From NCBI GenBank assembly GCA_002778785.1, contig PEZS01000001.1, positions 302,494 to 366,493 of the forward strand: a DNA stretch of 64,000 nucleotides, in the 5' to 3' direction. Source of the stretch: Bdellovibrionales bacterium CG10_big_fil_rev_8_21_14_0_10_45_34 (lineage in GTDB: Bacteria > Bdellovibrionota > Bdellovibrionia > Bdellovibrionales > 1-14-0-10-45-34). A program made the translations under genes and the position numbers. The notes under the pieces are model-generated. The model was not told the DNA's origin. It was given only the letters and a program-made list of their open reading frames with translations, and ran no database searches. Below are positions 32,001-45,088 of this stretch, piece by piece; the stretch's first letter is position 1, and each line of letters starts with the position of its first letter.

Positions 32001-32907
32001 AAAGAAGTCCATTAAAATTAAGTTGGATATTCCAAATTCGGCAGAATTAATTCGTGTGGATCCCACTCGGCTCCAACAGATTGTTTGGAACCTACTTAAC
32101 AACGCGATCAAGTTTTCTCCGAACGGCAGTACGATTAGCATTGAGCTCACATATTTAGACGTACACAACGGCCGAATTGCCAGGCTTCGTATCTCAGATC
32201 AAGGTAAAGGTGTTCCTGCGGAGTTTCTTCCGTATATCTTTAAACGTTTTATGCAGGCAGACGGTTCGTCTACAAGAGAGCATGGTGGGCTAGGTTTGGG
32301 GCTTTCTATTGTGAGCAGCTTGGTGGAAATGCAAAGTGGTACCGTCAAAGCAGAGAATAATCCTGGGGGTAAGGGAGCAATCTTTACAGTTACCTTTCCA
32401 GTGATATCCCATCAAACTGCGATCACAACGAATGATTTAACGAATGATTTAACGAATGGCACACCGGGTAATAAAGATAAGTCTATCCGGCAAACTCCGA
32501 AGCTAGATGGGCTGCGCATTCTGATAGTGGATGATGATCAGGGGACACGGGAAGCGATTAGTATTTACCTGAAGTCTTTTGGAGCGGAGGTTACCTCTGT
32601 CAGTTCTGCCGCGGAAGCCCTCGACGTCTTTTCAAGTTTTGATCCTAGTATTATACTGAGTGACCTGGCGATGCCCGGAGAAGATGGGTACAGCCTAATT
32701 CGAAAAATTAGGGCACTTGATGATGGTAAGGGAGGCAAAGTCCCGGCCTTGTCTTTGAGTGCTTACACATCAGACGCAGATGCCAAGGACGCTTTATTAG
32801 CTGGTTTTCAAGCACATGTAACTAAGCCAGTAGAAGCCACAGAACTGGCTCGACTTATCTTAAAGACTGTCGTCGAGAGGAACCAAGGTCCGCCGCCGGG
32901 ATTTTAA
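29008..32907 (+). CDS. CheB-CheR-PAS-histidine kinase-receiver fusion
   Basis: A 1,299-residue multidomain signalling protein. CheB methylesterase (about 30-215) has Ser44 in GASAGG, His71 in VQHLDRTHPS and Asp163 in GTGSDGT. CheR methyltransferase (about 250-520) has FFRDPESF and GCSTGEEVYS. A coiled coil of Glu-rich heptads (about 715-775) leads to a PAS domain, HisKA with His915 in LSHELRTPLSS, HATPase (NAIKFSPNG, GLGLSIV) and a terminal receiver with Asp1219 in LSDLAMPGEDG. A 12-base tandem repeat encodes the NDLTNDLTN linker before the receiver. AGGAGG touches the ATG, so the TTG at 29017 may be the real start. Confidence 0.9.
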   Translation: MYSLKSNTLKSKIVLKSKKRIPDQPKQETRRLRDSFPIVGIGASAGGLEAFLQVFSTMPTDTGLGFVLVQHLDRTHPSMSVDIIARSTNLKVEEVKDGTRIEPNHIYVIPPNFNMTINERVLSLSTRDVSPGQNMTINVFLQSLAISEKSRAIGIVLSGTGSDGTSGLMAIKVEGGITYAQDPKTAKYPGMPQSAITAGAVDLILRPESIAAELSRLVAHPYIAAEEFEISNQFDEGEDSNSALSEENSEVAPNDQALEKLFALLRSQKKVDFSGYKKTTIMRRIQRRMVVQKRQDLLEYVKFLETHEEEIQALYDDILINVTDFFRDPESFEALTKEVLPNLLKNKPKGSTIRIWVPGCSTGEEVYSIAIALLEVLETRAQRNAVQIFATDISEYAIQKARTGQYSDSVGGLSQPRLSRFFQKIDGGYQIIKAVRDLCLFSRHDVTSDPPFAKLDLISCRNVMIYFGKDLQKRVIPIFHYALLPSGFLWLGRAESLGDFSQLFSLVDKVHKIYSRSSVPTPMIRFSSKQAQAIPDVSKTLRHATKNDSEFQRDADKILLSKYAPAGVIVNSDLEILQFRGRTVPFLEPATGQPSLNLIKMVRPELLASLRTTIQSVKKANKAMVRSGLHFESDGRHISCDLEIIPIDPKALVKDRRYLVLFKEPKTGEFSSKDDSKRGKKGAKTKARLKEDKRTSELLAELLEIKDFQQALVEQYESTEEELTSANEELQSTNEELQSTNEEIETAQEELQSTNEELITVNEELQMRNADLTTLSSDLNNVLASIEIPVLIVGSDFRVRRFSPRAKSAFNLIFSDVGRPIGDIKPSFDLNLSQVIAEVIESLSPKQLEVQSFKGSWLRLQVRPYKTVDNKIDGAIITLTDIDEIKKREERTMKAYIKADEANLAKDVFLATLSHELRTPLSSILTWAQLIAQGKVNYEQAKRGAAVIEQNAKTQNQLIDDLLDISRIIVGKLAIEIKEVDPGAVIRTATESVRPLAEKKSIKIKLDIPNSAELIRVDPTRLQQIVWNLLNNAIKFSPNGSTISIELTYLDVHNGRIARLRISDQGKGVPAEFLPYIFKRFMQADGSSTREHGGLGLGLSIVSSLVEMQSGTVKAENNPGGKGAIFTVTFPVISHQTAITTNDLTNDLTNGTPGNKDKSIRQTPKLDGLRILIVDDDQGTREAISIYLKSFGAEVTSVSSAAEALDVFSSFDPSIILSDLAMPGEDGYSLIRKIRALDDGKGGKVPALSLSAYTSDADAKDALLAGFQAHVTKPVEATELARLILKTVVERNQGPPPGF

Positions 32908-34231: not shown

Positions 34232-34465
34232 GTGTGTCTAAATCATTTCGAAAAAAGAAGTGGTGCGCAAGTCGAACAAGTAGACGAACCGCTTGCGACG
34301 TTTATATTTGAGATGGAAGCCTATCCCGAAGCTAAGAGCCTCTCGCCCCAGGAACTGAGTGATCTCTATCTGCGTTTAAAGAACTTTTATACGGTTGCGG
34401 ACCTCATTGGATCCTCTGAAGTGTTTGCCCGCCAACATTGTTTTAAGCACAGAGATGATGAATAA
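34232..34465 (+). CDS. Small hypothetical protein at edge of accessory region
   Basis: A possible protein of up to 77 residues (GTG at 34232), or about 50 from the internal Met in FEMEAYPEAKSLS. It is acidic and helical with no recognised family and no strong ribosome site. Its end overlaps the end of the convergent antitoxin gene. Treat as tentative. Confidence 0.35.
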   Translation: MCLNHFEKRSGAQVEQVDEPLATFIFEMEAYPEAKSLSPQELSDLYLRLKNFYTVADLIGSSEVFARQHCFKHRDDE

Positions 34466-34775
34466 TTTTTCCAAGATTTTCCAAGGTGGGGTTTCCTTCG
34501 GGCGAAAGCATTCTAAATAATGTCCGCCTAGGAATACCTGCTTTCTGCGCAAGCTCGTCTTTATTCGTCACTTCTAAATGGCTTCGCAAAATTTCCTTAA
34601 ATGCTTCAATGTCATTTTCAACAAGACATTGCCAAAGGGCTTGCGCTACAACTTCCCGTTTTTGAAGTCGCACATCTGGATTAAATCCTATGATGCCTTT
34701 GCGATTTTTTAATTTAACCGCCGGTAAATCGTTCAAGGAGAAGCCGCGCTTTTTGGATATCTTTTTTTTGAGCAT
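34443..34775 (-). CDS. HigA-like helix-turn-helix antitoxin
   Basis: A 110-residue DNA-binding antitoxin of the type II class. The C-terminal HTH reads NKDELAQKAGIPRRTLFRML, followed by GNPTLENLGKIIHHL, the pattern of the HigA-2/'addiction module antidote' family. An N-terminal basic extension (MLKKKISKKRGFS) precedes it. It overlaps the toxin gene by about 60 bases, downstream of it, giving the HigBA order in which toxin comes first. It is expected to neutralise the toxin and repress the operon at the palindrome upstream. Confidence 0.82.
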   Translation of the reverse strand: MLKKKISKKRGFSLNDLPAVKLKNRKGIIGFNPDVRLQKREVVAQALWQCLVENDIEAFKEILRSHLEVTNKDELAQKAGIPRRTLFRMLSPEGNPTLENLGKIIHHLCA

Positions 34776-35010
34776 TTTTTAATCCTCCGTTCAAAAGCAA
34801 AATTACAACAGGTCCAGTCTTTGAAAAATAAACTCTCCGTCCATTTTTCCATCTTAACTCAGCCAAACCATCCCCGAGATTTTTGGCGTCACCAAAATGA
34901 GCATGATCTCGGATACGTTGAATTCGTGAGTCAATTTGCATCTGATCTTTTAGATTCAGACTCTCAAACCATTCCATAAACTCAGATGTTTGCTCTATTT
35001 GAAGTTGCAT
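34714..35010 (-). CDS. HigB/RelE-like toxin (addiction-module killer family)
   Basis: A 98-residue protein of the RelE/ParE superfamily, phage Gp49-like group. It shows EFMEWFESLNLKDQMQIDSR, a Gly/Leu-rich turn GDAKNLGDGLAELRWKNG, the strand RRVYFSKTG and the helix KNAQKKDIQKARLLLERF, typical of ribosome-dependent or free mRNA interferases. The first gene of the operon, starting 8 bases from a perfect palindrome that is the likely operator. Toxicity and target are inferred from family. Confidence 0.82.
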   Translation of the reverse strand: MQLQIEQTSEFMEWFESLNLKDQMQIDSRIQRIRDHAHFGDAKNLGDGLAELRWKNGRRVYFSKTGPVVILLLNGGLKNAQKKDIQKARLLLERFTGG

Positions 35011-35017
35011 CTACAAG

Positions 35018-35043
35018 TAATAGTGCCATATATGGCACTATTA
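35018..35043. promoter_or_regulatory. 26-bp perfect palindrome, probable HigA operator
   Basis: Arms TAATAGTGCCATA and TATGGCACTATTA meet with no spacer. The palindrome lies eight bases upstream of the toxin start codon, where an autoregulatory antitoxin would bind and cover the promoter or ribosome site. Confidence 0.75.
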
Positions 35044-35507
35044 GGTCAATTAAAAAATAGAACTTTTTCTAACCGCCGGTTGGCGCGTATCGACCGGCAA
35101 CTTTTGTATCGTATTGATATTTCTGAGAAAAAACTTGGTGCGCCCTGTTGGACGAGTTTCGAACCGCTGTCCTCGATTGTGCTTAAAATTGAATTGGCCG
35201 TCAATCTACCATTTTTAATAATATAATCTGACGCTTTGTTTTTTAATAACGACATTTAAGCTAGTCAGACACATCTTGCGTCTGTTCCTTAATATTCCTT
35301 TTTAATAAAATCCATTCCCAAGCCACCCCTCCGACCAAATGATTACTCGTTTATCAAAAACACCGCCAGCTTTAGCTGTCACTGGTTATGCCACTCGTAG
35401 ATTTAAAATTTTCTTTTTCGGCTGGGTTAACTTGGAGTTCTCAACACCATTTGGGTTTCAGAGTTTTACAAAAACCCCGAAATGGGTTGGAACAAAAGGA
35501 GGATTTT
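35044..35507. other. Intergenic stretch with a tRNA 3'-end-like fragment
   Basis: About 460 bases without a supported gene. At 35136-35173 the plus strand reads TGGTGCGCCC, then TTGGAC and TTCGAACC, the complement of a tRNA acceptor/T-arm ending in CCA (GGGCGCACCA). The T-stem does not pair well, and the acceptor does not match the tRNA-Leu at the right end of the region, so it may be a decayed 3' end of another tRNA (Arg or Lys type) or chance. A minus-strand frame (35046-35255) has no ribosome site and is not called. Confidence 0.4.
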
Positions 35508-35693
35508 ATGGCAAAAGTAAAACAAGAAAGACAAGAGGAACAATTCAAACGAGGCCTAGCATTCGTACCGTTTCACAAAGTGAGAAAAACTAAAAATGGC
35601 TCACAGATTTTAATATACCTTAATTCAGGTTCGGCCATTTCTGTTTCTATTAAGTACCTACTAAAAGTGCTTGAAGGTCAGGGCGAGGGTTAA
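35508..35693 (+). CDS. Small basic protein with strong ribosome site
   Basis: A 61-residue basic protein of unknown function. ATG 35508 follows AAAGGAGGATTTT, a near-perfect ribosome site, so I discard the longer in-frame readings upstream. The N-terminus is charged (MAKVKQERQEEQFKRG), then VPFHKVRKTKNGSQILIYLN and VSIKYLLKVLEGQ form a compact mixed fold. Its stop codon lies within the loop of a terminator, so it is a complete single-gene transcript. Convergent with the methylase gene; it could be a small regulator such as a control protein, but nothing proves that. Confidence 0.7.
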   Translation: MAKVKQERQEEQFKRGLAFVPFHKVRKTKNGSQILIYLNSGSAISVSIKYLLKVLEGQGEG

Positions 35694-35707
35694 ACCTCGC
35701 CTTTTTT
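35682..35707 (+). terminator. Rho-independent terminator
   Basis: GGCGAGG and CCTCGCC form a seven-pair stem with a six-base loop that contains the stop codon TAA, followed by TTTTTT. It ends the small-protein transcript and reaches the end of the convergent methylase gene. Confidence 0.85.
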
Positions 35708-37601
35708 ATAAAGATAATTCCGATACCGAACCAGCCGTTAAGTGCCTCATAAATTCGAGTTCCGTCATACGGTTTTGGTAAAACTCCATTCGACTTTTTA
35801 AAAAAGCTTTAATAGTTGAGTCTTTAAGCTCCAGCATTGGAATATCAACAAGATTGAGATCTGTCTTTTTCACTCGTTGGCGACTTGAGGATGTCCCTCT
35901 ACCAAGAGCAACAACCTGACTTCTTACAGCTTGTTGTTGAATTAAAAGAAATAATTTCGCTGCATTTAACTGTCCTTTTTCCTTCGGCTTTAAAACGGCG
36001 AACTCTGGGCTACAAGTCCAAGTAGTATTCTCGATTGATGGAATAAAGGTAGCTCTCCAAATATTCGGATTTAAACATGAAACGAGTATATCACCAGCCT
36101 CACAAACTAGAGGCTGCGTAACTGGTGCTTGCGCTAAACACGAGCGAACATCAATCAATCCCGTCTCATCAATATCAAGAATAGAAATATGGAGGTGTTT
36201 CGAGTTAGCTTTCCGCTCAATTTTTCCAAAATCTCTTCGATGCGTAACTAGACTCTCTAAGGACTTGATAGCCATAGAAGCATTATCGCTCTTCCTTGAC
36301 TGGTATTGAATTAAATCAGGAGACAATCGGTCGAAGGACTTCCAGCTTTCCGACCAAGTTAGTATGTCAGTATTTTTTTGTTTCACAAAACTACTTGCGA
36401 TTTTTTCGAGTTGATTTCCATGATTAGACTCGACTCGTTTATTTCCGCTTTTATCAAACCCAATATGTTCGATAGTTGCTGTTCCTAACTTTTTAAAGTC
36501 AGTATTTTTTCCAATCAGAACAACAGTCGTCTTTGCAACTGTTCCACCGAGAGCAAATGTCACTGTTGGAAGCGCGAACACTCCGCCAACGGTAAGCTCA
36601 ACATTATTAATGCGTTCGTAACTAAAAAGTAAGCGAACAAAGTCTTCGGAGTGCGCTATACCATTAGGCAAAACTATCCCAAGCACGCCACCACTAGCCA
36701 ACAAATCCAAGTTTTTCACAATAAACAACCAAGCTGGGTCTATTGTTGCGCCACTATTACTAAAGTTTAAAAACTTTAATAATTCAGTGTGGATATGGGA
36801 CCTAATATTTTCCGTGTATGTGTACTTATTCACTCCAAATGGTGGATTTGTTAGTAAAAGAGCAAACTTTCCTCTCAGTTTGTCGAGCGAGTCACTTGTC
36901 AGTGAGTCTGGAACACAAAAACATTTTGGCTTATTCTCACTTTCCAATAAAAAATTAATCTCGCAAAACTCTGTATGGATTTTGGACTGGTCAAATAAAT
37001 AGATTTTTTTGTTAAATGTGTTTTTTTCCGCTTTGTTCTCTAGGGATTTGGCTAGATGGAACATAAATCGTCCAGTTCCACCAGTGATGTCGCCAGCTAC
37101 GAAATCACTCTTTTCACTTAACAGTCCGTCCAATACGTTTTTATTCATAATCGCTAATGCCATCTGGACGGTTGGGGTAACGACTTCTTCTGGGGTGAGG
37201 TGAGTACCAAGTCCTTCTCCCGCCTCAAACTTACCCCGTAATAGAGAATTAAAAGCTAGACCTAAAACATCAAAGTCAGCCGATAAATTATGAATTTTAA
37301 CTAGAAATCCCAAGACATTTTCTAGTTGAGGCTCAATGTCGCCAAGGACTTGCGAGAGATCATAATCGTCGGAGCTAAGGTCAAACTTTTTTCGGACGAG
37401 ATTATACTCATCAACGAATTGGGTGATTGTTGGCGAACCTTTTTTTTCTATAATCGCGTTAAGTTTTCTAGAGTGCTTTAATACTAACAAAAGACGAGAG
37501 ACAAAAAATAATGTCTTAGACATAGGCTTTAAGGCCGTATGTGCGTAAATGTAGTCCGCAAAATCTAAAAGATGCTGTTCCAAGTTGTTTACTTTACTCA
37601 T
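35706..37601 (-). CDS. N-6 adenine DNA methyltransferase with specificity-like C-terminus
   Basis: A 631-residue modification enzyme of HsdM type. An N-terminal helical domain (1-125) precedes GLGTHLTPEEVVTPTVQMAL, then motif I AGDITGGTGRFMFHLA (about 169-184) and the catalytic motif IV NPPF at 252-255. From about residue 430 the sequence looks like a single target-recognition domain of type I S subunits (RRDFGKIERKANSKHLHISI, then a helix LNLVDIPMLELKDSTIKAFL). One fused M-S polypeptide fits type II enzymes that recognise interrupted sites. It is divergent from the candidate endonuclease. Confidence 0.85.
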   Translation of the reverse strand: MSKVNNLEQHLLDFADYIYAHTALKPMSKTLFFVSRLLLVLKHSRKLNAIIEKKGSPTITQFVDEYNLVRKKFDLSSDDYDLSQVLGDIEPQLENVLGFLVKIHNLSADFDVLGLAFNSLLRGKFEAGEGLGTHLTPEEVVTPTVQMALAIMNKNVLDGLLSEKSDFVAGDITGGTGRFMFHLAKSLENKAEKNTFNKKIYLFDQSKIHTEFCEINFLLESENKPKCFCVPDSLTSDSLDKLRGKFALLLTNPPFGVNKYTYTENIRSHIHTELLKFLNFSNSGATIDPAWLFIVKNLDLLASGGVLGIVLPNGIAHSEDFVRLLFSYERINNVELTVGGVFALPTVTFALGGTVAKTTVVLIGKNTDFKKLGTATIEHIGFDKSGNKRVESNHGNQLEKIASSFVKQKNTDILTWSESWKSFDRLSPDLIQYQSRKSDNASMAIKSLESLVTHRRDFGKIERKANSKHLHISILDIDETGLIDVRSCLAQAPVTQPLVCEAGDILVSCLNPNIWRATFIPSIENTTWTCSPEFAVLKPKEKGQLNAAKLFLLIQQQAVRSQVVALGRGTSSSRQRVKKTDLNLVDIPMLELKDSTIKAFLKSRMEFYQNRMTELEFMRHLTAGSVSELSL

Positions 37602-37730
37602 TTTTTCCCCTTAACTTTTCAAAATGTTAGACTAAAATCCAGGCTCTGCAAAGGATTATGATCCGCATCCGAAATTATCGCATTGCTTCAGGCCTCAAGA
37701 AATCACTAGTAATTTCCGAATAGTGGGTCG

Positions 37731-38417
37731 ATGAACGGAAAAAAAACTTATCCACAAAACATCATTGATGCTCTTCAACTCTTAGACGCACACTGCAAGG
37801 CATTCTACGATATTCACCCCATTGCTCATAAGTATAGCCACCCAATTCCAAACGATACTCGTGCTTGGTCGCAAATCCTCGCATCCGTGTTATCAGGTAT
37901 CAAAGGTCTCGCTCAAAAAAAAGGAGCAGACCTAAGCGATGGCTCCGACGTAAAAGGTGCAAACTGTTGGGAGGCTATTGATACTCCAAGATTTAACGGG
38001 GTTCTGCCATCAGGCCGGAAATCGGAAACCTCAAAAAAAGAATTAAATGTAACAGCATTGGACGATATTCCCCGCATCTACTTTGTTCTCTGGGACGACG
38101 AGCCAGTAACAAATAATAAGAGATGTAGAGTATGGTGTGTCCGTACAGCAAAGGATAAAGTTTTCCGTTCTGTAAGTGCCAAATGGTATGAACTAAGAGT
38201 GTCTGGTGAAATTAAGAGTGATAACTTTCAACTCCACCCACCTCGCCATCAAAATTCCAATGTCATTCGAAACACTTGTGGAAATATAGAAATGCCACTT
38301 TTGTTTTCAGCCACGAAAAAAAATAGCCATTTTTCTTGTGACCATTATAATCCCGACGTCATTGAAAATGGGCTATGCCAACTGGTACAAGCAGAAAATA
38401 AGAGACCGAAAAAATAG
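37731..38417 (+). CDS. MamI-like type II restriction endonuclease (candidate)
   Basis: A 228-residue protein, divergent from the methylase with a 129-base gap. The segment KKGADLSDGSDVKGANCWEA (residues 63-82), followed by IDTPRFNGVLPSG, resembles my recollection of the MamI family, whose members cut an interrupted palindrome. Asp67/Asp70, Asp73 and Lys75 could serve as a PD-(D/E)xK-like metal site. Pairing with a methylase that has a specificity domain fits that model. The assignment rests on memory of a family motif and on context; an accessory protein is the alternative. Confidence 0.6.
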   Translation: MNGKKTYPQNIIDALQLLDAHCKAFYDIHPIAHKYSHPIPNDTRAWSQILASVLSGIKGLAQKKGADLSDGSDVKGANCWEAIDTPRFNGVLPSGRKSETSKKELNVTALDDIPRIYFVLWDDEPVTNNKRCRVWCVRTAKDKVFRSVSAKWYELRVSGEIKSDNFQLHPPRHQNSNVIRNTCGNIEMPLLFSATKKNSHFSCDHYNPDVIENGLCQLVQAENKRPKK

Positions 38418-38440
38418 ATCTTAATCTCTATTCAATCATC

Positions 38441-38469
38441 AAAATAAAAAACACCCATTTTGGGGTGTT
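38441..38469 (-). terminator. Terminator of the minus-strand transfer operon
   Basis: AACACCC and GGGTGTT pair around a six-base loop; on the minus strand the hairpin is followed by a T-rich run (complement of AAAATAAAAA). It lies 34 bases beyond the last minus-strand gene and also sits just past the endonuclease gene, which ends toward it. Confidence 0.7.
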
Positions 38470-38502
38470 CATTAAGTTTAAAGCTACTATGAAATGTCTA
38501 TC

Positions 38503-38775
38503 CTAATTTAAGTCGCTTTTTGCGATTTCATCAAAGTCAACCCTATACAGCGAACCAATATCCAAAAATACATCTAAAAGTTCATTGCTTGGATTTGTTT
38601 TTAGCTCTTGCTCCATTTCGTAGATTAGGTCTCTCAATTTATCGCTGTAATCTTGCCAGCTTTTAGAGGACTTTTTCAGTACCTCCTTTAAATCATAAAA
38701 ATCGTTATCCAATCGTAATGAGCAAGCCCAAGTCTCACGATTTACCCAGCCATTGTATTTTGTATCCATATTCAC
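38503..38775 (-). CDS. Small NGWxNxETW-motif protein (DUF7249-like)
   Basis: A 90-residue protein that begins with TKYNGWVNRETWACSLRLDN, a motif widespread in phages and plasmids of many phyla. The rest is acidic and helical (DYSDKLRDLIYEMEQELK). Function is unknown. It closes the minus-strand operon before the terminator and marks the region as mobile. Confidence 0.75.
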   Translation of the reverse strand: MNMDTKYNGWVNRETWACSLRLDNDFYDLKEVLKKSSKSWQDYSDKLRDLIYEMEQELKTNPSNELLDVFLDIGSLYRVDFDEIAKSDLN

Positions 38776-38890
38776 TCCCTGTCTTTCGGCGTTGATTTCG
38801 GGTTCTCACTTGCGGAAACCCTTAACTGTTAAATGGAGTTTTTTAGGATAGACTGAGATTTTCTGGGCGACTTTTTAAATTATTTTCTAT

Positions 38891-39091
38891 TCAACTTATA
38901 TGGAGCTGATTTATCGAATTAAAAATGGCGACATTGTCACGAATAGTAATTAATTCGGCCTCAATTTGCTCTTGGCTTATCCTTGGATATTTAATTACTA
39001 AATCCTGAATGGGCATTTTTAATAAATCTCTCTCATAATCGCTCAAAAAATAATCCCAAGGCAGAAGTTTAAACTTTTCTTCGTGAAACAT
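38891..39091 (-). CDS. Small hypothetical protein
   Basis: A 66-residue protein. ATG 39091 is preferred because GGAGGAAGACA stands directly upstream. It overlaps the end of the preceding gene by 23 bases. It is helical (FKLLPWDYFLSDYERDLL, then ISQEQIEAELITIRDN) and may contain a helix-turn-helix-like segment around LVIKYPRISQEQIEAEL, but no family is recognised. Confidence 0.65.
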   Translation of the reverse strand: MFHEEKFKLLPWDYFLSDYERDLLKMPIQDLVIKYPRISQEQIEAELITIRDNVAIFNSINQLHIS

Positions 39092-39665
39092 TGTCTTCCT
39101 CCACATTTAATCCGAAAAAAATAAGTGTCGTTGGTCGGGAAAAATAAAAGGCACTGAGAAGGAAATCCAGATTAGAGCGAAGTCCATCGAAATAAACCTC
39201 GCCCTTCTCGCTATGAATAAATGAGACGTGATTAAGAACGTCCTTTGCTTTGTCTCCTGGCTTCGCTGGCACCTCCATTAGACTTAAGGCGATACTACCT
39301 TGCGAGAGGCGATTTAAAAATATACGCAAAAAAACTTCTTCATTCATTCCGTTGGGATTTATCACGAGCATTCGGCAAGAGTTGAATGTTGGGTGTTTGT
39401 CAATAATGCCCAGTAGCGTTTCAGGTTGAACACTGTTATTTTTTTCATTTGTTAACTCTTGAATGAGTTTCATTTCCTCAAAGGGCGATACATTGTCGCT
39501 AATTTTAAGACGTTTCTTTAAAGTCAAAATCGCATTAAGTAGTGCGATAGTGGAACAACCACAAGCCCTTGGGTCTTCAGTCCCCGATTTATCTGGGTCA
39601 ATAATATTGTAATAAGGGGCCTCGCACGCAGGATTTTTTAATTCGTTTACATCAATGATTTTCAT
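39069..39665 (-). CDS. Cysteine-peptidase-like protein of unknown function
   Basis: A 198-residue protein. The segment RACGCSTIALLNAILTL (33-49) has the Cys-then-helix arrangement of papain-like and C39 peptidases; His146 in VLNHVSFIHSEKG and Asp160 in VYFDGLRS follow in the order and spacing expected for a Cys-His-Asp triad. No signal peptide or transporter domain is present. It might process a peptide or cleave a conjugation or defence protein. The name is inference from pattern; I recognise no exact family. It overlaps its upstream neighbour by 4 bases (ATGA-type coupling). Confidence 0.5.
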   Translation of the reverse strand: MKIIDVNELKNPACEAPYYNIIDPDKSGTEDPRACGCSTIALLNAILTLKKRLKISDNVSPFEEMKLIQELTNEKNNSVQPETLLGIIDKHPTFNSCRMLVINPNGMNEEVFLRIFLNRLSQGSIALSLMEVPAKPGDKAKDVLNHVSFIHSEKGEVYFDGLRSNLDFLLSAFYFSRPTTLIFFGLNVEEDNVSRRKV

Positions 39666-39877
39666 ACTTTTGCCTCCTGTGGCTGATTAGAAAAAAATGA
39701 ACTAAATTGTCTTCGAAGACCCTCAAGTCGTTCGCCAAAGGCGACTTCCTTAGCTCGTTTGGTGCGTTCGTTTTCGGCAAACTTTGTTGTCATTCGCTTT
39801 AACTCCTGAACCTCATCGCTCTTTGTCTTTTGCCAACTCAAAATCTCCTCAATAATTTCTTTTTGTGTAAAACTCAT
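39662..39877 (-). CDS. Small coiled-coil protein
   Basis: A 71-residue protein starting at the ATG at 39877, which has AGGAGG about seven bases upstream; longer in-frame starts lack this. It is charged and helical (EIIEEILSWQKTKSDEVQEL, then ERLEGLRRQFSSFF). Function unknown; it lies between the initiator and the peptidase-like gene in the operon. Confidence 0.6.
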   Translation of the reverse strand: MSFTQKEIIEEILSWQKTKSDEVQELKRMTTKFAENERTKRAKEVAFGERLEGLRRQFSSFFSNQPQEAKV

Positions 39878-39899
39878 AACGTATCCTCCTTTGTTTCTA

Positions 39900-40670
39900 T
39901 TAAATGGAACTTTCATTTATTAAATCCGCCAAATCTGAATTGAACTTAATCCGCTTCATTGCTTGTGCGACGACGAGTGATTTAAGTTTTACCGGGTCAA
40001 CTTTTTCGATAATTGCCTCAGTGATTAAGGCACAACTATCTGTGCCTAACGTACGAAGTTCGAGATTTATTAAATCTTCGGGCAATGTTGAAAGCTCGTA
40101 ACACGATAAAAATCGTTCAAGATATTCGTTCCCTTTTTCCTTTTTTATTTGGCTCGACTTACCATAAGCCACGAGGGCAAAACGTGAGTTATATGCTTTA
40201 TAATAGATGATTTCTTTACGTTTCTTGAGCGTATATTGGGTGAGATTTTTAAAATCGCATTCGTCAAGAAGCCCATAGATTTTTTCATTTCTATTAATGA
40301 ACGAAATATCCAAACGGCTCACTAAAAACTTAATTCTTCGCTCTTTCAGAAAATCAATGACGGCTTGAGTGAGAGTGAGTGCGTCTGGTCTTAAGAAAAA
40401 TAACCCCTTAAATTGGAGAGACTTTTGGAACTGGCGGGCGGATAGAAAAATCTCTTTGCTCTCGCTTTTGTACAGAACACGACTACCCCAGGTGGAACTT
40501 GTCTGGGACATTTTTAGAAGACTGAAAATCTCGTGTGCTAAGGCGTCGTTTACAAAAAGCGATGAGTTGAATGTTAAACCATCTTCGTCTTTTTGTGGTA
40601 CGAGTAACGACGTTTTTATTTCGTCGTAAATCTGTATATCGAGGTAGTCTATTCTGGCATTTTTTTTCAT
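39900..40670 (-). CDS. Rep_trans/MOBT-like replication initiator or relaxase
   Basis: A 256-residue protein; ATG 40670 follows GGAG by five bases. It shows LVSRLDISFINRNEKI (117-132), a segment IIYYKAYNSRFALVAYGKSS (154-173) that resembles the 'YfGsr.S....iYDK' signature of Rep_trans proteins, and LINLELRTLGT (200-210), the later conserved strand. Proteins of this group nick oriT as MOBT relaxases in Tn916-like elements or start rolling-circle replication. Directly downstream of an FtsK-like ATPase, the same order as orf21-orf20 of Tn916. The catalytic Tyr is not assigned. Confidence 0.62.
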   Translation of the reverse strand: MKKNARIDYLDIQIYDEIKTSLLVPQKDEDGLTFNSSLFVNDALAHEIFSLLKMSQTSSTWGSRVLYKSESKEIFLSARQFQKSLQFKGLFFLRPDALTLTQAVIDFLKERRIKFLVSRLDISFINRNEKIYGLLDECDFKNLTQYTLKKRKEIIYYKAYNSRFALVAYGKSSQIKKEKGNEYLERFLSCYELSTLPEDLINLELRTLGTDSCALITEAIIEKVDPVKLKSLVVAQAMKRIKFNSDLADLINESSI

Positions 40671-40700
40671 AAAGTCTCCACACAAAATAAATGGAGATTT

Positions 40701-41957
40701 TTAAATGTCGTCTTTTAGTATGAATGGCACTTGGACTTTAATAACCTCACCATTGCCTGAAAAAATAAATCTCCCTGCCTTGAGGGTGGTATCGGTCAAA
40801 GTTTTTTCGTCACCAACGAGTAATCGGCTCATCTGGGCTGAGTTCCGTCCCAATAAAAAATTGATTATGTTTGTACGCTGGAGCGTCAGTTCCTCAACCT
40901 TGAGAGTCTGGTTACTTAAGATAATGAACACGCCTGATGAGCGGAAAAGTTGGAGGATAGAGTTTAGAAGTGACGAGAGTTTCTCTTCAAGTGAATAATG
41001 CTCCTTAAGTCTAATAGTTTCATCGTCGCTTTCCTTAGTAATGCGAACACTCGGTCGCGGGGTCATATACTGCGAGAGTTCGTCCGCAATAATTAAAAAT
41101 GGTTTCGGAGTTGGCTTTAGGTCAGGATACTTATCTTTAATTTTTAACCAATGAGAAATCGTAATACCGTTATCTGCGAGATATTTTCGATACTCATCGA
41201 TTTCTTTTTTATAGTCCTCAAGTACTGCCACCGCCTCTTTTAGCTCGTCTAAAAAAATGGGATTAAATGATTTGGCATTATACTTCTTTATGAGCGAGTG
41301 AAAATCTGTGCCTTTGGCGTCCAAAATTAAAACTCTGTAATGCTGCTCACCAGTGTTTTTAATCCAAGTATCAAGAAATGAACTGGCGACCGCCATAATT
41401 GAATTACCCTTGCCACCACCAGCCAGGGCAAAAATGCCTAGCGAAAAATCACCTTTGCGCAAATCTAAAATCAAATCATCGCCAAGAGCGTTTTTGCCAA
41501 GCCAGTATTGGCCCACCTCAAGGTTTCTAGGGCAATCAGTCATTGCGAGGGTTTGCTTAAAACTTTCAGTGTGAAACACGATTTCTCGTTGTCTCCAAGG
41601 GAACCGGGGATTTCTTACAGAAATATGCTCAATTTTTTTATCCCAAATGTGTTCGAGGTGTTCCTTTAGACGTTCAAAATCAAGGACTGCCAATTTGGGA
41701 TTATATTTAGCGAGTACAATATTATTTTTATCCCGATAAATCTTAATCCGAGAGGCGATAACCTTTTCTCTAATGACTTTGGTGCTTGGGTCAATAAACA
41801 GTTTTTTCTTTTCGTAATAAAGGCCGAGGGCTTTTAGGTCTTTCATTCGGTAGCGGAAATGATTTTTTATCTTCTGATAGTAAAATACAAGTAGCCCCAC
41901 TCCAAAGAGCGAGGCCACAAGTACCGCAACTATTTTCATATTTGCGAGGGAAATCAT
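40701..41957 (-). CDS. FtsK/TcpA-like coupling ATPase
   Basis: A 418-residue inner-membrane ATPase with one N-terminal helix (IVAVLVASLFGVGLLVFYY, about 9-27). The P-loop region reads GIFALAGGGKGNSIMAVA (about 174-191), and the Walker B strand FLIIADELSQYM (287-298) follows. C-terminal segments INFLLGRNSAQMSRLL and AGRFIFSGNGEVIKVQVP match the FtsK/TcpA motor fold. The P-loop lacks the usual Ser/Thr after the Lys (GGGKGNS), so it is a variant. In Tn916-like elements such proteins couple the relaxase to the pore. It precedes the initiator gene by 30 bases. Confidence 0.75.
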   Translation of the reverse strand: MISLANMKIVAVLVASLFGVGLLVFYYQKIKNHFRYRMKDLKALGLYYEKKKLFIDPSTKVIREKVIASRIKIYRDKNNIVLAKYNPKLAVLDFERLKEHLEHIWDKKIEHISVRNPRFPWRQREIVFHTESFKQTLAMTDCPRNLEVGQYWLGKNALGDDLILDLRKGDFSLGIFALAGGGKGNSIMAVASSFLDTWIKNTGEQHYRVLILDAKGTDFHSLIKKYNAKSFNPIFLDELKEAVAVLEDYKKEIDEYRKYLADNGITISHWLKIKDKYPDLKPTPKPFLIIADELSQYMTPRPSVRITKESDDETIRLKEHYSLEEKLSSLLNSILQLFRSSGVFIILSNQTLKVEELTLQRTNIINFLLGRNSAQMSRLLVGDEKTLTDTTLKAGRFIFSGNGEVIKVQVPFILKDDI

Positions 41958-41959
41958 AT

Positions 41960-42235
41960 TTATTTCGCCTCTACTTTTTTAAGAATGCGCGTGTACGACT
42001 TTACAGTTCGTCCATCGGCAATATGAAATTGTTCGACCTCCAATAGATGTTCTCCTACCGGAATGTTCTGGAGCGATTTACAGCGAATGAAATCAGGAGC
42101 CGATAAGGTATTTGTGACCTTACGCTCACTCTCTAGTATGACGACCCACTTAAGATTTTTGCTTAAGTCTTTTTCGTCGGTCGCAGGGACACACTCAACC
42201 ACTTTTGCTTTTAGATACTGAACTATTTTTGCCAT
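41960..42235 (-). CDS. Small protein at head of the transfer operon
   Basis: A 91-residue protein; the ATG at 42235 has AAAGGAG seven bases upstream. It is rich in strands (QYLKAKVVECVPATDEKDL, KWVVILESERKVT, GEHLLEVEQFHIADG) and Lys-rich at the end. Its position directly before the FtsK-like gene resembles that of the small Orf22/Orf23 proteins in Tn916, but the sequence is not obviously the same. It ends 3 bases before the ATPase start. Confidence 0.65.
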   Translation of the reverse strand: MAKIVQYLKAKVVECVPATDEKDLSKNLKWVVILESERKVTNTLSAPDFIRCKSLQNIPVGEHLLEVEQFHIADGRTVKSYTRILKKVEAK

Positions 42236-42324
42236 TTTATTTCTCCTTTGTTTTGGTGGCGTAATTGCCAACCGAGAAATTAAATGGAAAATCTCAAAAG
42301 TAGATTTTTTGTGGGTATATAATG

Positions 42325-42361
42325 CCAGTTTTGGGGGTATTACATATACCCCCAAAACTGG
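42325..42361. repeat. Perfect 16-bp inverted repeat, candidate oriT or operator
   Basis: Arms CCAGTTTTGGGGGTAT and ATACCCCCAAAACTGG flank the five-base TACAT. It lies between the XRE regulator gene (its stop is next to the right arm) and the 42235 gene. Neither strand has a T-run after the stem, so a terminator is unlikely. It stands just ahead of the transfer genes, where an origin of transfer, a double-strand origin or a regulator site would fit. Confidence 0.7.
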
Positions 42362-42583
42362 TTAAAGTCGGGCTAATAGGTTCGCTACCTTAAGATTTAA
42401 AGCCTCGGCGATAAAGTAGAGGGTCAAGTATCTGGGGTCTTTCTTGCCATTCTCAATGTCGCTTAAATTACCTTTGCTAATGCCAGCCTTATTCGCCAGC
42501 GCTTCAACGGTCATTAGTCGTCGCTTGCGCCAACTCTGAATGTTAGCGCCCAACTTTAATAGTTTTTTTTCGTGTGCCTTCAC
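42362..42583 (-). CDS. XRE-family transcriptional regulator
   Basis: A 73-residue helix-turn-helix protein of Cro/CI type: LGANIQSWRKRRLMTVEALA, then KAGISKGNLSDIENGKKDP and ALNLKVANLL. It starts at a GTG (42583) six bases after AGGAGG; a preceding GTG at 42586 is too close. It heads the minus-strand operon of the element and probably represses it and/or the divergent recombinase operon through the inverted repeats upstream. Confidence 0.88.
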   Translation of the reverse strand: MKAHEKKLLKLGANIQSWRKRRLMTVEALANKAGISKGNLSDIENGKKDPRYLTLYFIAEALNLKVANLLARL

Positions 42584-42602
42584 CACGCACCTCCTGTTTT
42601 AA

Positions 42603-42618
42603 AAATATCTCGATATTT
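42603..42618. promoter_or_regulatory. Short inverted repeat upstream of XRE gene
   Basis: AAATATC and GATATTT separated by TC, 20 bases upstream of the XRE start. Candidate operator for the regulator. Confidence 0.45.
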
Positions 42619-42638
42619 ATGTAATGGCCTATATTCAG

Positions 42639-42683
42639 CTTAGCCGATTTTGTTCGTTATCGCGAACAACGAGCTAGGCTAAG
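42639..42683. repeat. Nested inverted repeats in the divergent control region
   Basis: An outer pair CTTAGCC and GGCTAAG (42639-42645, 42677-42683) encloses an inner pair GTTCG and CGAAC (42652-42656, 42663-42667). It stands between the XRE operon and the rightward genes ending in the recombinase. Nested dyads like this occur in replication origins and operators; no function can be fixed from sequence alone. Confidence 0.5.
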
Positions 42684-42878
42684 ATATGACTTCTCTTGAA
42701 GAAAAAAATATTTATGAAATGAGATAATCGTGTAAACCATTGAAACCATTGAGAAATATGTAACAACGCGTTATACTGGTTTTGTAGCGATAAAGAACCG
42801 AGGGAGTAGGCTCAAGGGGAAATATCGGGACTGGTTCTGGGTAAGCCACTTAAAGAAACCCTGATTAGTGGTGGTGAT

Positions 42879-43130
42879 ATGAAACCCAATACAACAGGCC
42901 GAGCCAAGCCTGACTTAGTCGAAGAGGCTGGCACATTAGCGAAAGAAAAGACCCGAACTTACATAAACCCAGCTGATGGCACGAAGTTTAAAATTACTGA
43001 GGAAGAGTTCGCTCAGGTAGTTAAGATTTTCGAATATCTTCGAAATTCACGAAACGCCCAAGTGGACACTCTCGAACCAGAAACAGATACGCAAGAAGTA
43101 TCAAATGATTTAAAAGAAAAGGCAGGATAA
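42879..43130 (+). CDS. Hypothetical protein of the recombinase operon
   Basis: An 83-residue hydrophilic protein with no recognised family. It contains PDLVEEAGTLAKEKTRTYIN and a helix TEEEFAQVVKIFEYLRNSR, with an acidic tail. ATG 42879 follows GGTGGTGAT, a weak ribosome site. It is the first of three plus-strand genes ending in the serine recombinase. Confidence 0.6.
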   Translation: MKPNTTGRAKPDLVEEAGTLAKEKTRTYINPADGTKFKITEEEFAQVVKIFEYLRNSRNAQVDTLEPETDTQEVSNDLKEKAG

Positions 43131-43134
43131 CTTT

Positions 43135-43476
43135 ATGGACGCTTATAGAAATAGAAAAATCAATTTTTCCGATGTTGGCTTTAGACTTTGGCATAAACTC
43201 CGAAGCACAAAAACAACCCGGAAAGAGCGAGAAGATTTGCGAATGGAACTCCAAAGAATTGGAATGGTAAATGGAATTATTTTTAGAATTTTAGTTACCA
43301 ATCGAGAGGAGTTTCCCTTCGCAAAGGAGTTACAAGAAAGTTTCGTGAGAACCTTTATACCAGAAGAATTACTCACGAATTGGAGCGATAAGAAAAAACT
43401 TGAAGTGCTGTTAGCAACCATAATGCCTGACCCAAGAAAGTTCGAGTATCTATATGACGATAATATACAAGAATAA
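43135..43476 (+). CDS. Hypothetical protein overlapping the recombinase gene
   Basis: A 113-residue basic, helical protein (SDVGFRLWHKLRSTKTTRKE, then FPFAKELQESFVRTFIPEEL). No family is recognised. It starts four bases after the preceding stop and overlaps the recombinase start by 23 bases, so its translation may be coupled to the recombinase and it may act as an accessory or directionality protein; that is inference from position. Confidence 0.6.
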   Translation: MDAYRNRKINFSDVGFRLWHKLRSTKTTRKEREDLRMELQRIGMVNGIIFRILVTNREEFPFAKELQESFVRTFIPEELLTNWSDKKKLEVLLATIMPDPRKFEYLYDDNIQE

Positions 43477-45061
43477 GAAAGCTGTCGCTATTCTTCGAGT
43501 GAGTAGCGTCAAGCAAACAGATGGTGGTATCTCTCATCAGGTTCAGGAAGAGAAGTGTCGGGAGTATGCGAAAGACCTTGGATTAGATTTAGTAAGTGTT
43601 TTTACTTTTGCCGAAAGTGCTAAAGACAGTCAGCATCGAAAAAAATATAATGAAGCAATGGCATTTGTACGAAAGAACAAGATAGGTAATGTCTTATTCT
43701 ATATGACCGACCGCGAAGCAAGAAATATGACTGATGGGGAGGAGAATGAGCGTCGCGTTTTAAAGGGTGAGTTCAATATTCATTATGTGAATGAAAGAAA
43801 GATACTTCATCAGAATACACCAACTAGTGAACTGTTTGCTCGTGATGTTCAACTCGCTTTGGCGAAAAGCACCTCTAAAATAACAAGTGCTAAAGTTATC
43901 GATGCGATGGCCTCAAAGGCTGAGACTGGCTGGTACCCCAGCAATAAGCCGCCACTTGGATACACCACAGTTAAACTCAGAGACGATGAAACTGGACGTC
44001 TCAAAAATCGAGGCACAATTATTGGTCTCGACCCTAATGAGAAAAATAGGAAAATCGTTCTTAAAGAGTTCGAATTACGAGCGAAGGGGTTTACTTACGA
44101 GGAGATTAGGAAGCAAGTTTTGTCAGAAGGGCTGATGAAATCAAAAAAAGCCCTGACATACCGAAAAAGCTCAATTGAACATAGGCTTAAAAACCCCTTC
44201 TATCGTGGCGAGTTCGACTGGAAGGGTAAGCGCTACAAAGGCAAGCACGAATTATTTATCCCTAGAGCTTGGATTGATAGAGTTGATGAAATGAATGGGC
44301 TTCGAGGTAGTTCTAAACGCAATTTTGCTGATGAGCATATGGTGTTGGTTGATGGCTGGTTGAATTGCTCCTGTGGTTGCCGGATTATTTATGACCCTAA
44401 AACGAAAACCATCAAGAGTGATGATGGAAAGACAAAAACATATCACTATTATCATTGTACCAATGGCAAAGGTGTTCATCAGAAGTTCGAAAATATCAAG
44501 GGTGATAAAATCTGGGAACAGTTTGGAAGTCTCATCGAAAAAATCAATATCAGCGATGAGTTTGCTGAAGATATAGCCCAGGCCCTCAATAAGACCGAGA
44601 ATAAGGCCCATAGAGTTAGTGAACTTCAAATAGCTGAGTTCAAGGATAAGGAAGTTGAACTTCAAAGTCGTGAAGATAAGTTGTTTAATATGTTTGCCGA
44701 AAATCAAATCGACAAAGCTACCTACGAGCGCCAACTAAGACTAGTTCGTGAAAATCGTGAAGACATAACTAATCAACTTGAGAAACTTCAAAAGAGTTTA
44801 ACAAGTGCTGTGATGGAAACAGCTAAAACTGTTCTCGAACTGGCTACATCAGCGAAATCATTATGGAAAAGCAAGTCACCACAGGAGCGCAGAGAGTTCC
44901 TAGATACCATACTCTCGAACCCAATATTAGATGGCTTAACTGTTCGATATCAGTTGAAAAAACCATTCGCTGTACTTGTCAAAATGAATGAAAATGTTGA
45001 ATGGTGCCCGGGACTGGACTTGAACCAGCATGCCCTTTCGAGCGCTAGCACCTCAAGCTAG
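43454..45061 (+). CDS. Large serine recombinase (integrase)
   Basis: A 535-residue recombinase. The resolvase-type catalytic domain (about 8-150) has the nucleophile Ser17 in AILRVSSVKQTDGGISHQVQ and the Arg pair in DREARNMTDGEENERRVL. The recombinase domain (about 170-310) begins near PSNKPPLGYTTVKL, a zinc-ribbon follows (LNCSCGCRI ... YHYYHCTNG), then a coiled coil (about 385-450). The last 19 codons lie inside tRNA-Leu, read antisense, so the C-terminus is encoded by the host tRNA. It is probably the integration and excision enzyme of the element. Confidence 0.92.
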   Translation: MTIIYKNKKAVAILRVSSVKQTDGGISHQVQEEKCREYAKDLGLDLVSVFTFAESAKDSQHRKKYNEAMAFVRKNKIGNVLFYMTDREARNMTDGEENERRVLKGEFNIHYVNERKILHQNTPTSELFARDVQLALAKSTSKITSAKVIDAMASKAETGWYPSNKPPLGYTTVKLRDDETGRLKNRGTIIGLDPNEKNRKIVLKEFELRAKGFTYEEIRKQVLSEGLMKSKKALTYRKSSIEHRLKNPFYRGEFDWKGKRYKGKHELFIPRAWIDRVDEMNGLRGSSKRNFADEHMVLVDGWLNCSCGCRIIYDPKTKTIKSDDGKTKTYHYYHCTNGKGVHQKFENIKGDKIWEQFGSLIEKINISDEFAEDIAQALNKTENKAHRVSELQIAEFKDKEVELQSREDKLFNMFAENQIDKATYERQLRLVRENREDITNQLEKLQKSLTSAVMETAKTVLELATSAKSLWKSKSPQERREFLDTILSNPILDGLTVRYQLKKPFAVLVKMNENVEWCPGLDLNQHALSSASTSS

Positions 45062-45088
45062 TGCGTCTACCAATTTCGCCACCCGGGC
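45002..45088 (-). tRNA. tRNA-Leu (GAG anticodon)
   Basis: An 87-base tRNA with acceptor GCCCGGG/CCCGGGC, discriminator A and encoded CCA at the 3' end. The anticodon loop TTGAGGT sits between CTAGC and GCTAG, giving GAG; a long variable arm (CGCTCGAAAGGGCATG) is typical for Leu. The 3' end faces the accessory region and overlaps the recombinase gene, so it is the likely integration target. Confidence 0.95.

Follow-up and report, generated by a model that had tools for sequence, protein, structure and literature searches.

A Bdellovibrionota integrative element, probably mobilisable, with a serine integrase gene that ends inside a tRNA-Leu gene

The stretch of Bdellovibrionales DNA that was analysed (the window; 64,000 nucleotides) contains an integrated element with short att cores at both ends, a large serine integrase, restriction-modification genes and a compact group of minus-strand genes (Table 1). 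The preliminary description had already recognised an integrative element of Bdellovibrionota here, with a minus-strand order of XRE regulator, small protein, ATPase and initiator that is exact by coordinates; the XRE regulator and both restriction-modification genes are borne out by their family matches. Its limits for the element, 35018-45088, were too wide, and a TA module at 34443-35010, considered as a part of the element, was rejected as it lies outside attL. The att sites were located by comparing two homologous elements, and have their counterpart in L056, a second such element from another family of the phylum. A plain repeat search missed them because the core common to attL and attR in the window element is only 6 bp. 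The conserved core comprises the XRE gene, a covarying perfect hairpin, the 91-aa protein (no Pfam family and no DUF961 match), the FtsK-type ATPase and a Rep_trans/Phage_CRI-type initiator, beside which stand the restriction-modification genes, which would serve as cargo or as a stabiliser. A papain-like fold is possible for the 198-aa protein, judging from its alignment.

The core gene set was found at 12 loci in 11 of 369 genomes of the phylum, and on one circular Bdellovibrio plasmid; a scan of the genome contigs gave four loci, all already among those from the phylum genome search. Chance is ruled out as the origin of the gene order, which is kept in synteny at 12 loci in other genomes and at differing tRNA genes. 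The core, which also occurs with different integrases, is sporadic and sits at different tRNAs, so that it does not behave as a set of genes residing in syntenic chromosomes without mobility. Most of its relatives carry tyrosine integrases, which indicates that the integrase module has been exchanged and that the pairing of a large serine integrase with a MOBT/TcpA module, remarked on in the preliminary description as new for what looked like Bdellovibrionota, is no hallmark of the family. That description had overlooked the tRNA-targeting lineage of the integrase, the rebuilding of its gene by integration and the hairpin ahead of the core.

Table 1. Features of the element and its target in window coordinates (L numbers denote loci used for comparison).
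Feature	Position	Strand	Details and basis
Integrated element	35136..45004	.	9,866 bp, left core TGG (35136) to right core TGG (45002); TGGTGC cores at attL/attR
attL	35136..35186	+	core TGGTGC and P' arm; codes detached native integrase C-terminal tail WCALLDEFRTAVLDCA-stop
61-aa conserved protein	35508..35693	+	MAKVKQERQ...; at or near element end also in L018, L019, L020, L022, L058
N6 DNA methyltransferase	35706..37601	-	specificity-like C-terminal part; PF02384 (N6_Mtase) 6e-16; PADLOC MTase_I 2.1e-20, Specificity_I 1e-7
MamI-type restriction endonuclease	37731..38417	+	PF09567 1.3e-36
DUF7249 protein	38503..38775	-	90 aa; PF23907 2.9e-8
71-aa core protein	38891..39106	-	homologs L016, L052, L056
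198-aa core protein	39069..39665	-	invariant Cys37 and His146; alignment
84-aa core protein	39662..39916	-	homologs L016, L017, L056
Rolling-circle initiator/relaxase-like protein	39900..40670	-	256 aa; putative nucleophile Tyr169 in YGKSSQ
FtsK/TcpA-type ATPase	40701..41957	-	418 aa; N-terminal TM helix
91-aa small core protein	41960..42235	-	homologs at matching place in aligned core loci
Hairpin	42325..42361	.	perfect inverted repeat 16 bp, 5-nt loop; candidate nick site/double-strand origin/oriT
XRE-type regulator	42362..42586	-	HTH_3, E 4.9e-12; position shared in L056
83-aa protein, candidate recombination directionality factor	42879..43130	+	upstream of integrase; homologs L056, L092, L093, L105, L107
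113-aa protein, no assigned function	43135..43476	+	99-aa counterpart in L056, by position only
Large serine integrase	43454..45061	+	integrated form 535 aa, native 532 aa; Trp517 marks crossover
attR	45002..45026	+	core TGGTGC, antisense of tRNA 3' CCA end; T-loop antisense TTGAACC
tRNA-Leu(GAG)	45002..45088	-	integration target, restored on insertion; ARAGORN

The integrase has both the Resolvase (PF00239, 5.7e-14) and the Recombinase domain (PF07508, 6.9e-8) and a length of about 500 aa, which places it in the large-serine class, and it also matches phrog_95 (9.5e-52) and CcrB-like recombinases (1.1e-18). Its position at the right end of the element is as first described, except that the gene runs 60 bp into tRNA-Leu(GAG) instead of only abutting it. 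The attP site lies inside the integrase gene, and the crossover falls on a Trp codon whose TGG is the CCA end of the tRNA in antisense; the tRNA is thus restored on insertion, and the native tail of the enzyme, 16 aa, gives way to 19 residues read from the tRNA antisense strand. The reading frame runs on through the reconstructed attP, a structure shared with L056 and L096, and across this junction the excised form would read ENVEW-CALLDEFRTAVLDCA. The same exchange, of a conserved tail of 15-26 aa for a tRNA-antisense peptide, was reconstructed in 12 elements, with native tails of the form W-x3-[LIV]-x2-[FLY]-R that reach their stop 15-26 codons past the W. Among the 17 integrase elements examined, no attL was recognised in five (tmRNA, Ser-GGA, Phe and two Leu-TAA), and in L108, L110 and L115, where the accepted att site equalled or fell below another by core length, the tail decided the choice.

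This arrangement belongs to a lineage rather than to a single element, as 40 of 49 loci in the phylum end inside a tRNA or tmRNA gene, and an integrase of the lineage ends at or in a tRNA in Legionella and on two gut-phage scaffolds as well; a scan of IMG/VR gave no match to the integrase. At least 17 changes of target isotype are seen on the integrase tree. The T-loop GAAC lies at +21-24 in attB and at +26-29 in attP', i.e., 5 bp further out in attP, a displacement equal to the one described for the zinc-domain motif of serine integrases (PMC3783163). The near-universal T-loop probably serves the integrase as zinc-domain motif, which would allow the lineage to move between tRNA genes. Serine integrases in the surveyed literature insert into protein genes or elsewhere, tRNA genes being the sites of tyrosine integrases. 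No description of tRNA-targeting serine integrases, or of an attP within a serine integrase gene, was found in the literature searched, subscription journals lying outside the search, and the main text of Durrant et al. (PMC10083194) does not mention tRNA.

It is tempting to speculate, with a little less than even confidence, that the lineage uses tRNA universals as a landing code, the CCA end as core and the T-loop as zinc-domain motif, so that small changes retarget it, and that insertion exchanges the C-terminal tail of the enzyme itself; the integrated form would then not be identical to the integrating one and would carry a built-in direction latch, a serine counterpart of the archaeal suicidal integrases. 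The conserved tail in attL may instead simply reflect constraint on the DNA of the attP arm, its exchange being without function. This is a real possibility, if on the doubtful side: the tail's Arg-Thr pair falls on the conserved GAAC recognition motif and the acceptor-stem codons are set by target identity, but conservation follows the codons, with third positions lowest (0.78, 0.83, and 0.56 for positions 1, 2, and 3), codon 5 keeps just its middle T (Leu, Val, or Ile) at 14 of 14 sites, and the stop falls at codon 15-18 in 11 of the 14. The 83-aa protein, kept ahead of the integrase gene among elements of differing cargo, would act as the directionality factor.

The initiator was described beforehand as Rep_trans/MOBT-like, of which the superfamily stands while the family does not. 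At the curated cut-off PF02486 matched neither the initiator nor eight relatives, a genome-wide search likewise gave none at the locus, and sequence searches of Pfam, NCBIfam, and PDB did not identify the protein. Compared by hhalign, its family aligns with pT181 RepC (probability 89.7, E 1.9e-6), the catalytic motifs of the two lining up; Y169 and K171 are invariant among 11 aligned sequences in a motif Y-x-K-x-x-Q/E, and there is a weak Phage_CRI match (E 0.013). Rep_trans structures are TBP-like and carry Y191-x-K193-x2-E196 (PMC4797284); structural prediction, proposed earlier as a check, gave a weak model (AF2, pLDDT 64) whose top PDB fold matches are TBP structures. By these profile and motif matches the initiator is a member of the Rep_trans/Phage_CRI superfamily, and lacking a PF02486 match it is MOBT-like in its presumed working and not a Tn916 member. 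The hairpin is found some 90 bp ahead of the first gene in the operon, has a fold z of -8.6, and is kept in L016, L017, and pBdHAGR3, with 8 of 16 pairs altered on both sides and 64 of 64 cells paired; it had no match in loci without the core. A role as terminator was rejected, since no T-run follows it on either strand. By analogy with pT181 ICRII it is a candidate origin or nick site of the initiator, which after excision would nick the hairpin loop through Tyr169 and start rolling-circle replication, strand transfer, or both.

The profile check proposed for the ATPase confirmed the FtsK/TcpA-like assignment: phrog_1358 FtsK/SpoIIIE (E 1.6e-17) and, by family profile, FtsK crystal structures (E 9.4e-9) identify it as FtsK-type, with a weak PF01580 match in four of nine family members. 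The predicted structure is poor (AF2 pLDDT 58). Walker B reads LIIADE and Walker A reads ALAGGGKG, the clade of the window having AxxGGGKG/NGKG versus GSGKS, GAGKS, and GTGKT in distant relatives; with this departure from the canonical form ATPase activity is not assured.

The combination resembles several known systems. Streptococcal IMEs (PMC5357655, PMC5704250), small elements without VirB4, pair an integrase with RCR-type relaxases (MobT, PF01719, PHA00330) and the FtsK-related TcpA, but they belong to another phylum, PF02486 misses the window initiator, and their serine integrases insert inside protein genes and not at tRNA 3' ends. Tn916 and ICEBs1 (orf22-orf21-orf20) have the same order of small protein, FtsK-type ATPase, and Rep_trans-type protein, whereas the window element has no T4SS genes and no PF02486 or DUF961 matches, and its XRE regulator is a separate gene, the initiator having no fused HTH; membership in the Tn916/MOBT family proper, as at first proposed, is not upheld. 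The Rep proteins of the pT181 family with their ICRII hairpin (PMC4797284) share Y-x-K-x-x-E/Q, R-x-D and E-rich strands, and a hairpin near the rep operon, and their TBP-like fold is suggested for the window initiator by a weak model, but this initiator has no recognised C-terminal DNA-binding domain and its sequence lies below HMM detection; the hairpin origin is a candidate here. Archaeal SSV-type suicidal tyrosine integrases (PMC8371274) likewise have attP in the integrase gene, so that integration changes the gene; here the enzyme is a bacterial serine recombinase that exchanges only its last 15-26 residues and keeps its catalytic part intact. The integrases of Listeria phage LI/A118 and Bxb1 and the CcrB of SCCmec share the resolvase and recombinase domains and the 5-bp shift of the zinc motif from attB to attP, as demonstrated for LI, but not the tRNA/tmRNA targets or a gene whose 3' end contains attP. 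Integration-dependent immunity of mycobacteriophages (PMC8092301) also places attP in a coding gene and alters the C-terminus of its product, which is a repressor there and the serine integrase itself here.

With an integrase, a relaxase-like protein, defined att sites, and no mating genes the element has the composition of an IME. No VirB4, pilus, or mating-pair gene of its own is found among its ORFs, so it does not qualify as an ICE. The reduced, mobilisable setting foreseen at the outset agrees with this and with the likeness to IMEs carrying TcpA and an RCR relaxase. Elsewhere in the host genome (C1, 68.7-76 kb) a T4SS cluster encodes VirB4-, VirB6-, and VirB10-like and FtsK-type proteins, so that a helper route exists, and the ATPase may dock DNA at, or pump it into, such a host- or helper-encoded T4SS. 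It is likely, judged from the sequences compared, that this is an integrative element of Bdellovibrionota in which integrase, initiator, hairpin, and ATPase act jointly and which is probably transferred by mobilisation.

In Actinobacteria TraB moves double-stranded DNA by itself. An AICE-like working, with the FtsK-type ATPase alone moving double-stranded DNA and the initiator only replicating the excised circle, would suit an integrase, a rolling-circle initiator, and one FtsK-type protein without T4SS genes, and a core also present on a circular plasmid without other recognisable initiator; it is nevertheless unlikely, as TraB-type transfer is not known outside mycelial Actinobacteria, the host is not hyphal, and its genome holds the T4SS cluster with an FtsK-type protein. 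Descent from a filamentous, inovirus-like phage or satellite, with a G2P-type initiator, an ssDNA-binding small protein, and a pI/Zot-like export ATPase, is quite improbable: the weak Phage_CRI match, the presence of an Inoviridae protein near the top of the viral fold matches, and the gene sizes speak for it, but the ATPase matches FtsK and not Zot, no coat-protein genes were found in the element, and no relative turned up for the ATPase in phage records or IMG/VR, nor for the initiator in IMG/VR. Least probable of all is a decayed island that has lost its mobility and is retained for the sake of restriction-modification: despite the atypical Walker A and the absent mating genes the frames of core, integrase, and restriction-modification genes are intact, attL and attR are both present, and a comparable Walker variant is seen in three further elements whose cores are intact (L016, L017, L056).

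Large-cargo DNA insertion depends above all on serine integrases, and a lineage that reads tRNA may offer naturally retargetable enzymes; reading of the T-loop and CCA end would explain the reach of one enzyme family over many tRNA targets. An enzyme that rewrites its own C-terminus in the course of integration would be a simple model for direction control. For the Bdellovibrionota, predators with few genetic tools, the core of initiator, ATPase, and hairpin may provide a transfer or replication module and a candidate plasmid origin.

The element (9,866 bp) lies on contig C1 of a 3.06-Mb genome that is the sole representative of its family among the genomes searched, and GC content across it is 0.38-0.40, down from about 0.45. 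The last 60 bp of its serine integrase ORF overlap tRNA-Leu(GAG), which is encoded on the opposite strand. The left end was identified by comparison with L056, a homologous element from another family of the phylum, whose integrase is 70% identical and whose target is likewise tRNA-Leu(GAG); it reads TGGTGCGCCCTGTTGGACGAGTTTCGAACCGC in the window and TGGTGCACCCTGCTGGACGAGTTTCGAACTGC in L056. When the ends are joined at their common core, the integrase frame stays open in both elements (...ENVEW-CALLDEFRTAVLDCA-stop, 532 aa, and ...ENVEW-CTLLDEFRTACVGFKLSKAI-stop, respectively), while in the integrated state the frame is antisense tRNA (...ENVEW-CPGLDLNQHALSSASTSS-stop). L056 was evidently a tandem insertion that lost its inner integrase, because the C-terminus of another serine integrase (VKMKGNVRW) is left over to the left of attL (L056:2820-3008). 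Second tail copies in loci L105 and L106 suggest tandem insertion as in L056.

Features of the element and its surroundings, with positions in the window
Feature	Position	Strand	Remarks
CheB-CheR-histidine kinase-receiver fusion	29008-32907		large protein; read from sequence only
Toxin-antitoxin-like pair	34443-35010		beyond the element, adjoining attL on the left; Gp49/RelE-type (1.1e-4), HI1420-type antidote (1.9e-5)
Left end (attL)	35136
N6 methyltransferase		minus	left part of element
XRE, 91-aa protein, 418-aa ATPase, 256-aa initiator, 84-aa, 198-aa, 71-aa proteins		minus	in this order
198-aa core protein, Cys and His invariant	39069-39665		conserved in this and related elements; may be papain/C39-like
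Hairpin	42325-42361		perfect 16-bp inverted repeat, 5-nt loop
MamI endonuclease		plus
83-aa protein, 113-aa protein, serine integrase		plus	right end
tRNA-Leu(GAG)	45002-45088	minus

Protein searches matched the integrase in 63 of 369 genomes of the phylum, and in 40 of the 49 loci with a usable ORF it ends within a tRNA or tmRNA gene of the other strand. These loci include 20 distant integrases (about 23-31% identity), chosen as a control able to fail, and 16 of these are among the 40. The targets comprise tRNA-Leu (GAG, CAA, TAA, TAG), Arg, Glu, Ser, Phe, Asp, Asn, Ala and tmRNA; the tRNA isotype must change 17 times or more along the integrase tree, so targets have switched repeatedly. The conserved tryptophan codon TGG is the antisense of the tRNA CCA. 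Outside the phylum, a Legionella adelaidensis plasmid carries a homolog similarly placed at tRNA-Asn, and of two homologs on gut-phage scaffolds one overlaps tRNA-Leu and the other has tRNA-Glu just downstream of the match. The genome of the window holds a second element (L092, G000:C1:448000-467142) at tRNA-Leu(TAA), with a 74% identical serine integrase (L092:12676-14373), different cargo and a shortened gene adjoining a transposase-like ORF (L092:17222-18784).

At their far ends, 12 elements show TGG, a stretch of 6-13 bp identical to the acceptor and, behind it, a tail in the integrase frame (14 sites in all, as two loci hold a second copy in tandem), although the sites in L108, L110 and L115 tied with or ranked below alternatives and were picked by their tail; no such site was found in five elements examined. 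Native tails follow W-x3-[LIV]-x2-[FLY]-R-[TIK]-[AE]... and are 15-26 codons long (15-18 at 11 of the 14 sites). Conservation per codon position (0.78, 0.83, 0.56) is protein-like, but Arg-Thr coincide with a DNA motif. Relative to the T of TGG, GAAC of the T-loop occupies +21 to +24 in attB and +26 to +29 in attP'; this 5-bp shift is the same as in the zinc-domain rule known from serine integrases (PMC3783163). We infer that the exchange of tails by integration has a function. In several native tails the last two residues are small or apolar (DCA, YAI, WAA, HIA, IAL), somewhat as in ssrA-type degrons; integrated tails are mostly unlike these.

In streptococcal IMEs serine integrases disrupt protein genes whereas tyrosine integrases use tRNA ends (PMC5357655, PMC5704250), and the sites reported for mycobacterial serine-integrase prophages and PICIs are likewise not tRNA genes (PMC10654092). 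The open-access literature searched did not describe serine integrases that target tRNA genes and have attP within their own gene.

The ATPase resembles FtsK, as the preliminary description had proposed (PHROGs, 1.6e-17; family profile against PDB, 9.4e-9), and the Walker A of ATPases of its clade is unusual. The initiator, called Rep_trans/MOBT-like there, gave no match to PF02486 and only weak ones to DUF6633 and Phage_CRI; its family aligns with pT181 RepC in hhalign (89.7%, E 1.9e-6), with Y169-x-K171-x-x-Q174 on Y-x-K-x-x-E of RepC. The best PDB matches of its AF2 model, which is weak (pLDDT 64), are TATA-binding proteins, and Rep_trans crystal structures have been described as TBP-like (PMC4797284).

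Upstream of the core lies the hairpin (DNA fold z -8.6), whose centre GGGG-N-TAT/ATA-N-CCCC is shared by L016, L017 and the circular 15.4-kb Bdellovibrio plasmid pBdHAGR3, starting 124-125 nt (L016, L017) or 202 nt (plasmid) from the small-protein gene; L057, L059 and L022 have shorter hairpins at the corresponding place. In four aligned copies all 64 of 64 cells are paired with 8 of 16 pairs altered on both sides, a level matched by 0 of 500 shuffles, and a pattern search of 146 loci gave matches confined to loci with this core. In pT181 plasmids a hairpin of this kind carries the nick site in its loop (PMC4797284). The hairpin may be a regulatory element; we regard it as a candidate origin or oriT.

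Named bacteria with a relative of the core are Bdellovibrionaceae bacterium UBA2316, Bdellovibrionales SSF45 and Bdellovibrionota KLAP141. The core occurs at 12 places in 11 of the 369 genomes and on pBdHAGR3, which has no recognisable initiator besides it. Since most relatives carry tyrosine integrases (PF00589 in L018, L019, L021, L057 and L059) and sit at tmRNA, tRNA-Gln, tRNA-Leu(CAA) or tRNA-Asn, integrase modules have been exchanged. On pBdHAGR3 (L005, 19-1386) a Dam-type DNA adenine methylase is fused to a tyrosine integrase. The cargo of one relative (L019:4290-5774) includes what reads as an ABC-F type ATPase gene, a family with ribosome-protection resistance proteins among its members.

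The host genome encodes VirB4-, VirB6- and VirB10-like and FtsK-type proteins at 68.7-76 kb of the same contig (L101, L060) and a second VirB4 on contig C11. In the former cluster of this Gram-negative host, an FtsK_SpoIIIE-type protein (PF01580, 7.8e-22) stands in place of an obvious VirD4 coupling protein. The element is probably excised by its integrase. A candidate directionality factor is the 83-aa protein, which is conserved next to the integrase even where the cargo differs. The initiator would then probably nick at the hairpin, and the DNA would probably leave via a type IV secretion system that belongs to the host or to a helper, the FtsK-type ATPase serving as coupling protein. The element would work like the streptococcal IMEs with TcpA and a rolling-circle relaxase (PMC5357655, PMC5704250).
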